The notes: generated by a model from the letters alone, not told the origin. Positions 37,487 through 39,385 are shown, counted from the stretch's first letter. The stretch is 64,000 nt of DNA from Malaciobacter halophilus (GCF_002837275.1 NZ_NXIF01000023.1:1-64000); one strand, 5' to 3'. Made by a program: numbers and translations.

Positions 37487-37518
37487 ATTCTATTGCAAAT
37501 AGGATAAAATTTGTCTTA
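37487..37518 (-). promoter_or_regulatory. nifS promoter and shared Fe-S operator
   Basis: TAGAAT (37492-37487) is a -10 candidate on the minus strand. Directly upstream, 37500-37518 reads TAGGATA-aaatt-TGTCTTA on the plus strand: a 7-5-7 inverted repeat nearly identical to those before sufB and selO. A second weaker inverted repeat, TTTGTTA/TAACAAA, lies at 37535-37559. The 270-nt gap also contains a -10 box for the + strand ABC gene. Confidence 0.6.
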
Positions 37519-37605
37519 ATTAAACAACTTAAACTTTGTTATTTACTAAAAGTAACAAATTTTTTAAAACAATATTTTATCTTTTCTATGATTTAGATTC
37601 TCTTT

Positions 37606-37611
37606 TATAAT
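37606..37611 (+). promoter_or_regulatory. -10 box for ABC binding-protein gene
   Basis: TATAAT preceded by a T-run (TCTTT). It gives a leader of about 90 nt before the ATG at 37707; AAAGGA lies at 37696-37701. Confidence 0.5.
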
Positions 37612-37706
37612 ATAAATGAATAAACTAATATTTAAACTTGATAGAGTTTTTACTAATAAATAGATATTATTAATCAAAACTTTTTCATACACACAAAGGA
37701 CAAAAC

Positions 37707-38513
37707 ATGAAAAGATTACTTCTAATACTTTTATTAGCTATACCTTTTTTATTTATAGCTTGTAGTGACTCAACCAAACAATCAAAAGAGGAAAATAAAG
37801 TTTTAAAAGTTGGAATGGAACTGGCTTATCCTCCTTTTGAAATGAGTGACAAAGAAGGAAAACCAACTGGTGTTTCTGTTGATTTAGCAAAAATGATAGC
37901 AAGATCTATGAATAAAGAGTTAGTAATTGAAAATATTGCATGGGATGGTCTTATACCTTCACTTAAAACAGGAAAAGTAGATATGATTATCTCATCAATG
38001 ACTATCACAAAAGAGAGAGAAAAATCAATTAGCTTCTCAATTCCTTATGCAAAATCAGCTTTAGCTATTCTTGCAAATAAAGATTCAAATGTAAGTAGTA
38101 TTGATGATTTAGATAAAATGGGAAAAACAGTTGCTGTAAAAAAAGGTTCAACTGGACACATTTATGCACAACAAAACCTAAAAAATGCAAATGTATTAGT
38201 TTTTGATAAAGAGAGTGCTTGTGTTTTAGAAGTTGTTCAAGGAAAAGCTGATGGCTTTTTATATGACCAACTAACTATTTATAGAAATAATATAAAACAT
38301 AAAGATACAACTATTGCACTATTAAAACCTTTTCAAAAAGATTTTGAGTATTGGGCAATAGCACTAAGAAAAGATGATACTAAACTAAAATCAAAAGTTG
38401 ATGAGTTTATACAAAAAGCAAAAGATGATGGAACGTTTGATGATTTTGCTTATAAGTATTTAGCTGGTGCAAAGAAAACTTTTGATGAATTAAATATCCC
38501 TTTTTTCTTTTAG
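37707..38513 (+). CDS. Amino-acid ABC transporter substrate-binding lipoprotein
   Basis: Solute-binding protein of 268 aa, family 3 (SBP_bac_3). N-terminal lipobox LFIACSDS, Cys19. Mature fold: LKVGMELAYPPFEMSDKEGKPTGVSVDLAK, then AWDGLIPSLKTGKVDMI, and YAQQNLKNANVLVFDKESACVL. This fold binds polar amino acids or oligopeptide-like ligands; the exact ligand is not readable. Permease follows 9 nt later; no ATPase is in the window. Confidence 0.9.
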   Translation: MKRLLLILLLAIPFLFIACSDSTKQSKEENKVLKVGMELAYPPFEMSDKEGKPTGVSVDLAKMIARSMNKELVIENIAWDGLIPSLKTGKVDMIISSMTITKEREKSISFSIPYAKSALAILANKDSNVSSIDDLDKMGKTVAVKKGSTGHIYAQQNLKNANVLVFDKESACVLEVVQGKADGFLYDQLTIYRNNIKHKDTTIALLKPFQKDFEYWAIALRKDDTKLKSKVDEFIQKAKDDGTFDDFAYKYLAGAKKTFDELNIPFFF

Positions 38514-38522
38514 GAGTACAAA

Positions 38523-39311
38523 ATTAACTTAAAAGATTTTTTTATAAAAGAACTATCTTATAAAAAGCAAGACTCTTTAGATAAAAGAGTTTATGCTTTT
38601 AATTTAACTATTTTAATAGTTGTTGTTTTTTCAGTTTTATATTTTATGTTTTCAAATGTAAATTATAATTTTAATTGGGATAGTGTTTTTGAGTATAGAC
38701 AAAAGTTTATAGATGGTTTTTTGATGACTATTATAATATCAATTTTTGCACTTATTTTAAGTTTTATAATTGGTCTATTTTTTGCATATGCTCAAAACTC
38801 TAAACTAATCTTTTTAAGATTTATAGCAAGATTTTATATTGAAATAATTAGAGGAACTCCTTTACTTGTACAAATATTAATCTTTTTTTATGTCTTTGCA
38901 AATAATTTAGGATTTGAAAATAGATATATAGTTGGTGTTTTTATTTTAGCAATATTCTCTGGTGCATATGTATGTGAGATTATTAGAGCTGCAATTGAAT
39001 CAATTGAAGTAGAACAGTATGAAACAAGTATAAGTTTAGGAATGAGCAACTATGAAATGTATAGATATATAATCTTTCCACAAGCTTTTAAAAGAATGCT
39101 TCCTGCTTTAACAGGACAATTTGCTACAATAATTAAAGACTCTTCTTTATTATCAATAATTTCTATTTCTGAGTTTACTATGAATGCACAAGAAGTAAAT
39201 GCTTATACTTACTCTACTCTTGAAAGTTATATACCTTTAGCTTTAGGATACTTATTACTTACATATCCAATATCTTTTTATACAAATAGACTAGAAAAAA
39301 GCATTAAATGA
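38523..39311 (+). CDS. Amino-acid ABC transporter permease, ATT start
   Basis: BPD permease of 262 aa. The first in-frame ATG (38646) would drop 41 residues including the first membrane helix (about 26-42, NLTILIVVVFSVLYFMF). In frame directly after the binding-protein stop there is ATT at 38523, with AGGAG 6 nt before it, giving a start INLKDFFIKEL; no ATG/GTG/TTG exists in frame between. The EAA-type cytoplasmic loop is QYETSISLGMSNYEMYRYIIFPQAFKRMLP (position about 180-210). It works with the lipoprotein; the ATPase must be elsewhere. Confidence 0.88.
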   Translation: MNLKDFFIKELSYKKQDSLDKRVYAFNLTILIVVVFSVLYFMFSNVNYNFNWDSVFEYRQKFIDGFLMTIIISIFALILSFIIGLFFAYAQNSKLIFLRFIARFYIEIIRGTPLLVQILIFFYVFANNLGFENRYIVGVFILAIFSGAYVCEIIRAAIESIEVEQYETSISLGMSNYEMYRYIIFPQAFKRMLPALTGQFATIIKDSSLLSIISISEFTMNAQEVNAYTYSTLESYIPLALGYLLLTYPISFYTNRLEKSIK

Positions 39312-39346
39312 CAAAAAAATACCTTTACAACTTAGAAGATTTATGA

Positions 39347-39385
39347 TACAATTTCCTAAATAAGACAAATTATGTCCTATTTAGG
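39347..39385 (+). promoter_or_regulatory. sufB promoter with inverted-repeat operator overlapping the Shine-Dalgarno
   Basis: TACAAT (39347-39352) is the -10 candidate. Right after it is a 13-5-13 inverted repeat (39355-39367 and 39373-39385, one mismatch) with core TAAGACA-aatta-TGTCCTA at 39361-39379. The right arm ends inside AGGAG (39383-39387), the sufB Shine-Dalgarno, so the hairpin would hide it. The core matches sites before nifS and selO. Confidence 0.65.

Follow-up and report, generated by a model that had tools for sequence, protein, structure and literature searches.

A shared operator upstream of the NIF and SUF iron-sulfur assembly genes of Malaciobacter halophilus and its probable Rrf2-family repressor in the Campylobacterota

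The nifSU and suf operons and their promoters

The window, by which we mean the whole 64,000-nucleotide stretch of Malaciobacter halophilus DNA that was analyzed (NZ_NXIF01000023.1:1-64000), carries two divergently oriented systems for iron-sulfur (Fe-S) cluster assembly (Table 1): nifS, which encodes an epsilon-type cysteine desulfurase, with nifU, the gene for a three-domain scaffold, and a suf operon headed by sufB, the later genes of which we take to be sufC, sufD, sufS, sufE-like, and sufT-like, the names being assigned from their sequences. As the initial annotation had it, an ABC transporter separates nifS from sufB. It is of the amino-acid type; the lysine/arginine-, glutamine-, and cystine-type families scored highest for it, yet all remained under their cut-offs. 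Cystine as the substrate would suit the supply of sulfur for Fe-S assembly. The transporter occupies this position in the organism's own genus, and in sister genera, as seen in genomes G341 and G335, the two genes are directly divergent.

Each promoter contains a palindrome, and the two are identical at 20 of 22 positions when read in the nifS orientation (TAAGACAAATTTTATCCTATTT versus TAAGACAAATTATGTCCTATTT). Both inverted repeats had been proposed at the outset, and their coordinates and the degree of agreement between them were reproduced exactly. The nifS operator starts 8 bp upstream of the probable -10 element, where a -35 element would be; this -10 element was not picked up by the sigma-70 scan of the window, there being no -35 match. 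At sufB, where the -10 and -35 elements together score 10/12, the site starts 9 bp past the -10 element and therefore spans the transcription start and leader. These distances agree with the earlier placement of the two sites, just 5' and just 3' of their respective -10 elements, and with the earlier view that both placements fit a repressor: one site covers the -35 region and the other covers the start, so that negative control would be predicted at both promoters. Translation of sufB is likely to start at the ATG at 39393 rather than at an in-frame ATG further upstream (39372), which falls within the operator.

The symmetric pattern TARGAYA-N5-TRTCYTA matched the window at these two places only (37500 and 39361), against 0.01 matches expected from dinucleotide-preserving shuffles. 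A third candidate site lies between selO (ydiU; minus strand) and a radical-SAM tRNA-modification gene on the plus strand. The product of the latter gene is apparently a fusion with an MnmC2-like methyltransferase domain (residues ~329 to 505) and thus an apparent two-step tRNA-modification protein. A divergent Fur-family gene is situated close to the end of the window.

Table 1. Features of the window and the candidate regulator gene. Positions are those of the window, except for the Rrf2 gene, which lies on contig C75.
Feature	Position	Strand	Basis or remark
nifU, three-domain scaffold	35230..36210	-	TIGR02000, 227 bits, under equivalog cut-off of 273
nifS, epsilon-type cysteine desulfurase	36237..37436	-	TIGR03403, 665 bits (cut-off 588)
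nifS probable -10, TAGAAT	37487..37492	-	Read from sequence
nifS-nifU operator, TAGGATA-AAATT-TGTCTTA (plus strand)	37500..37518	-	19-bp core, read from window sequence; conserved 25-bp palindrome reaches ~37497-37521
Amino-acid ABC transporter (substrate-binding protein and permease)	37707..39311	+	Separates nifS from sufB
sufB probable -10, TACAAT	39347..39352	+	Sigma-70 scan; extended TG; -35-like TTTACA at 39324
suf operon operator, TAAGACA-AATTA-TGTCCTA	39361..39379	+	Read from window sequence
sufB	39393..40826	+	PRK11814, 867 bits (cut-off 717); ORF open from 39372
sufC, sufD, sufS, sufE-like, sufT-like	40841..44653	+	ORFs; same operon as sufB
Third candidate site, CAAGATA-AAATT-TGTCCTA	54637..54655	+	13/14 positions; nifS-site model R1, E 9.3e-4
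Radical-SAM protein (MnmL/YtqA)	54736..56394	+	TIGR01212
Fur-family gene	63151..63414	+	PF01475, 53.6 bits
Rrf2 candidate (L010)	C75:31412-31810		Between rpsO and DHH gene; three cysteines

Distribution of the site in the genome and in the class

In the 2.75-Mb genome, the narrow form TAGGAYA-N5-TGTCTTA occurs at five places, every one shortly 5' of a gene: nifSU, the suf operon (sufB), mrp/apbC, which encodes an Fe-S carrier, sodB, the gene for the iron superoxide dismutase, and a flavodoxin gene. The sodB site is oriented opposite to the other four, which is uninformative because the site is palindromic. The symmetric form has seven exact matches genome-wide, and the two additional places, one inside a TRAP-transporter-like gene and the other overlapping the 3' end of an endonuclease-IV-like gene, both lack A/T flanks. 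With one mismatch allowed, the symmetric pattern was found at 24 places, compared with 7 for the reversed control pattern. The initial annotation had held that an equal number of such sites at random intergenic positions would speak against a shared operator; no comparable number at random positions emerged, the narrow form being confined to promoters (5/5) and the control pattern giving the lower count. A model built on nifS sites alone recovered nifS, sufB, mrp, sodB, and flavodoxin as its best matches in the organism's own genome, and in two Helicobacteraceae genomes it found nothing better than E 0.13. At the flavodoxin locus (L001, 949 to 2712; contig C34), three tandem flavodoxin paralogues adjoin fur and the operator lies between the first two, an arrangement that suggests a flavodoxin switch in Fe-S stress.

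Conservation was assessed at nifS loci drawn from one scan of named genomes (80 loci) and from genomes of other families (27 loci), the nearest nifS relatives being those of Arcobacter and Aliarcobacter assemblies; a site was called when at least 12 of the 14 specified positions matched no more than 200 bp upstream. Outside Helicobacter and a Nautiliaceae-like family (f5), 68 of 81 Campylobacterota nifS promoters contained the site, against a mean of 1.9 and a maximum of 8 for shuffled promoters, so that it stands upstream of orthologous genes above chance, as would members of a shared regulon. It was found in none of the nifS promoters of Helicobacter (0/17) or of f5 (0/4) and in none of six loci labelled as other phyla. 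The aligned nifS sites carry ~26 bits over 31 columns, and the conserved extent is a 25-bp palindrome, roughly AATTARGAYAAAnTTTRTCYTAATT, in which all 49 aligned sites share the G, A, T, and C of GA.../...TC. Roughly half of the left half-sites at nifS read GAC rather than GAT. The Campylobacteraceae form at nifS, AAAGATA-N5-TATCCTA, in which the first T is usually A, is positioned directly 3' of the -10 element. The same site precedes sufB in relatives (G285, G251, G341, and G335), and three genomes (G341, G150, and G335) possess paired sites ~130 to 155 bp apart, which in G341 and G335 stand between the divergent nifS and sufB genes. Conservation upstream of orthologues, proposed earlier as a check on the idea, was therefore seen at nifS in nearly every non-Helicobacter family tested and at sufB in relatives.

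The strict pattern is present in 85 of the 298 genomes of the class, a count to be read in the knowledge that this pattern (WTT) misses most Campylobacteraceae, the nifS form of which was detected only when promoters were read; the reversed control pattern was very rarely matched. Loci from Arcobacteraceae genomes and about twenty others were read, with target genes named from profile matches except in obvious cases. In the Arcobacteraceae relatives, open reading frames cover 86% of the loci, and yet every strict site (43/43) falls between genes. Among the loci read, the genes 3' of the site are nifS/nifU, sufB, mrp, sodB, flavodoxin (fld), and tpx, together with those for desulfoferrodoxin/superoxide reductase, a di-haem cytochrome c peroxidase, nfu, napA, ccoN, and nifH; in Campylobacter-like genomes, the site also precedes feoA and the fumarate reductase gene mfrA. 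No iron-uptake genes were seen among the targets in these loci, except for feoA in one Campylobacter. The predicted regulon is thus much broader than NIF and SUF. In two diazotrophic Arcobacteraceae-like genomes (L177 and L200 in G166 and G336), the operator lies before nifH, which would bring nitrogen fixation under the same regulator. In related species (L164, L169, and L174), a conserved site is flanked by genes for a HAD phosphatase and a NosL-like protein.

The candidate regulator and competing explanations

No Rrf2 or Fur gene linked to nifS was matched in 80 nifS loci, and linkage is therefore uninformative on the identity of the regulator. The genome contains two Rrf2 genes, L009 and L010. 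We rejected L009, which adjoins cysK, scores like CymR, lacks conserved cysteines, and is missing from several motif-bearing genomes. L010 is a gene of the Rrf2/IscR-like kind that the initial annotation had recommended seeking elsewhere in the genome. Its product scores 99.0 bits against PF02082 (cut-off, 30) and 107.2 bits against TIGR00738 (cut-off, 73.3). Over 25 orthologues, the helix-turn-helix (HTH) segment SKSFLAKI[LM]Q is mostly invariant; in the wing motif G-x2-GG-x2-L (G58-x2-G61G62-x2-L65), the glycines are invariant and L65 nearly so; and all three cysteines that follow the HTH, C91-X6-C98-X7-C106, are invariant. The protein does not reach the equivalog cut-offs for IscR (73.5 of 207.55 bits for TIGR02010 and 47.1 of 275 bits for PRK10857) or for NsrR, RirA, and CymR (36.8 of 182, 55.4 of 193, and 33.9 of 195 bits, respectively), and its relatives in the PDB include IscR (4hf2, E 7e-9) and other Rrf2 proteins.

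An orthologue of L010 (E <=1e-18) was found in all 209 non-Helicobacteraceae genomes and, at a comparable score, in none of the 89 Helicobacteraceae genomes; rpsO is its neighbour in most loci checked, and in several motif-bearing genomes an L010-type protein is the sole Rrf2 protein. This co-occurrence of regulator and site rests mainly on one loss, that in the Helicobacteraceae, and on divergence in f5, and it represents few independent evolutionary events. The f5 orthologues (L315 to L322) retain the three cysteines and have an altered HTH segment (PKPFLAKLLQ) in genomes from which the nifS site is missing; it is possible that regulator and operator diverged together in this family. In two further genomes (L022 and L024), Rrf2 is present and the nifS site was not found. 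Several genomes of the Sulfurospirillum group carry a degenerate site, TAGTACA-N5-T[AG]TCTTA, 39 to 52 bp before their own Rrf2 gene, which suggests autoregulation; its left half, however, coincides with a -10-like TACAAT, and this inflates the match. No recognisable site precedes the Rrf2 gene in the M. halophilus genome.

The site also permits notation as a 7-1-7 inverted repeat, and the main rival is accordingly a reader of the Fur family, be it Fur, PerR, or a paralogue, that would place Fe-S and oxidative genes under iron or peroxide control. In that notation the core, GGATAAA-N-TTTATCC, is similar to the classic Fur box, TGATAAT-N-ATTATCA, and this similarity counts against an Rrf2 reader. 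The rival is further favoured by the Fur-responsive sodB and nifS genes reported for H. pylori, by the presence of Fur-family genes in every genome tested (four in that of M. halophilus), and by two Sulfurospirillum-like genomes (L214 and L215) in which a Fur-family gene and a peroxidase gene flank one site; two PerR-like genes have the site 52 bp upstream, in common with the peroxidase promoter. The details of the site and its distribution argue otherwise: conservation spans 25 bp, the GAC seen at nifS in roughly half of the left half-sites departs from the GAT of the Fur box, none of 30 Fur genes is preceded by the site, and the targets read include almost no iron-uptake genes. Helicobacter species with a second Fur-family member are without the site, whereas in the draft genome G015 the site is perfect and a single Fur-family protein was found. 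Moreover, the core equals that of a known Rrf2 operator (PMC9973013), and we regard a Fur-family reader as unlikely.

A different Campylobacterota DNA-binding protein that is absent from the Helicobacteraceae, such as one of the MarR, Crp-like, or OmpR type, could in principle read the site, with Rrf2 merely codistributed; the phyletic profile amounts essentially to one loss, and C. jejuni has several redox regulators, for example CosR, PerR, and RrpA/B (PMC5656828). A gene set in which Fe-S biogenesis comes first, the core of the site, and the sequences resembling the site upstream of the Rrf2 gene nevertheless point to Rrf2, and we consider such a protein very unlikely to be the reader. An AT-rich core close to AT-rich promoter elements might also arise by chance, but this explanation was rejected on the basis of the shuffles and the comparative data: two sites were seen in the window where 0.01 was expected and 68 of 81 in the class where 1.9 was, every one of the 43 strict sites is intergenic, and control-pattern counts are low over 298 genomes. 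Chance resemblance is hardly credible against these figures.

Proposed mechanism and relation to known systems

We conclude that the two sites are almost certainly functional operators to which one shared regulator would bind and that this regulator is very probably the rpsO-linked Rrf2 protein. The single, probably Rrf2/IscR-like repressor of NIF and SUF envisaged in the initial annotation thus gains support from the conservation of the site and from the three-cysteine Rrf2 protein. Our overall reading, in which a single winged-helix repressor, likely the rpsO-linked Rrf2 protein, senses Fe-S status and acts on both sites as operators within a Campylobacterota-wide regulon, has a probability of about 0.82. 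From the position of the sites and the precedent of RisR, we infer that the holo-form probably represses and that cluster loss relieves repression. When clusters are sufficient, a holo-dimer with a presumed [2Fe-2S] or [4Fe-4S] cluster would bind the 25-bp palindrome (core, GAC/GAT-N7-GTC/ATC), which overlaps either the -35 or the -10/start region, and would thereby obstruct RNA polymerase at the promoters of nifSU, suf, mrp, sodB, flavodoxin, and other genes; iron shortage, superoxide, or excess oxygen would destroy the cluster, and the apo-form would release the DNA, leading to joint induction of NIF and SUF assembly, Fe-S carriers, Fe-independent electron carriers, and superoxide and peroxide defence. 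Joint repression of napA, mfrA, and ccoN with defence genes would not be expected, which weighs against this scheme. More tentatively, and on balance doubtfully, the Rrf2 protein may be the missing oxygen/redox master switch of the Campylobacterota, using one Fe-S cluster to coordinate both Fe-S systems, Fe-S carriers, superoxide and peroxide defence, and the respiratory enzymes of anaerobic or microaerobic growth (nap, ccoN, and mfr/frd), with some genes repressed and others activated.

Campylobacterota are microaerophiles, and their oxygen sensitivity is attributed to fragile Fe-S enzymes. A common site before Fe-S and oxidative-stress genes, with a likely IscR-like reader, leads us to propose that the group as a whole, Campylobacter probably included, seems to have a dedicated Fe-S stress response. 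When C. jejuni was grown in chemostats at more than 100% aerobiosis, NifS, NifU, Mrp, SodB, and Tpx increased jointly, in what was called a co-ordinated response, and the regulators of nap and other oxygen-controlled genes were called unknown (PMC5656828). A shared operator would explain the co-induction of these five proteins; the oxygen-induced list closely fits the predicted regulon, which was derived independently of it, and the master switch, if real, would explain how nap and other C. jejuni genes without known regulators respond to oxygen. The organism lacks FNR and ArcA (PMC11334517), and in its biofilms iscS and nifU are strongly induced alongside katA and herA (PMC12056249). Its counterpart of L010 is probably Cj0883c (CJJ81176_0891), to judge from the annotation and from a position that we take to adjoin rpsO. 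This gene figures in one table of transposon work on growth and intestinal colonization (PMC5438104), and the literature yielded no functional study of it, only appearances in lists. What the present analysis offers is a defined 25-bp site, a list of targets, and one candidate protein for Fe-S sensing in the Campylobacterota.

Literature searches with the site string returned nothing relevant, no description of dual Rrf2 control in Campylobacterota or of any NIF and SUF pair was found in searchable papers, and a 2019 review of respiratory regulation in the Campylobacterota mentions neither Rrf2 nor IscR (PMC6682613). The earlier remark that control of NIF and SUF by one regulator is not known to be described for this group agrees with these searches; outside the class, the control of two Fe-S systems by one regulator has precedents in RisR (PMC9973013) and E. 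coli IscR. The kind of system is known; what appear to be undescribed are its occurrence in this class, a common site for NIF and SUF, the unlinked position of the regulator, its unusual cysteine spacing, and a broad oxidative and respiratory regulon.

Like the site described here, the Fur and PerR boxes of Campylobacter and Helicobacter are palindromic and AT rich; they differ from it in extent, gene set, and distribution, although sodB and Fe-S genes are among the known Fur and PerR targets in Helicobacter. NsrR, RirA, and CymR share a superfamily with the candidate, and NsrR and RirA bear Fe-S clusters, but their targets lie in NO detoxification, iron uptake, or cysteine metabolism, whereas those predicted here center on Fe-S assembly. 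E. coli IscR has the same Rrf2 fold, Fe-S assembly genes as its main targets, and a type 1 operator that also contains GAC-N7-GTC. It differs in the spacing of its cysteines (C-X5-C-X5-C, against C-X6-C-X7-C in the candidate) and in gene position, iscR being the first gene of an isc/suf operon and the candidate lying outside any Fe-S operon, beside rpsO and a DHH gene. IscR acts on two Fe-S systems with opposite signs, suf being activated by apo-IscR, whereas here the nifS and sufB sites both occupy repressor positions.

The closest likeness is to RisR of Myxococcus xanthus, an Rrf2 protein whose cluster-bound form represses both isc and suf; its operator is an imperfect palindrome that has the core GAC-N7-GTC and AT-rich flanks and lies over -10/-35 elements (PMC9973013). 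TARGACA-N5-TGTCYTA has the identical core and spacing, the Campylobacterota sites also allowing Y/R variation (GAT/ATC), and the nifS and sufB sites are placed as RisR operators are, over -35/-10 or -10/start. RisR also resembles the candidate in having three cysteines and in serving two Fe-S assembly systems, as is predicted for the candidate. The systems themselves differ, being ISC and SUF for RisR and NIF and SUF behind the Campylobacterota sites, as does the cysteine arrangement, which in RisR is C-X9-C-X5-C (C92, C102, and C108) (PMC9973013) in contrast to the C-X6-C-X7-C of the candidate. RisR belongs to Rrf2 subgroup IS6, and the target set predicted for the candidate is far wider, with oxidative and respiratory genes. 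By the tests made, the candidate is neither IscR nor RisR, though its predicted mode of action resembles theirs.
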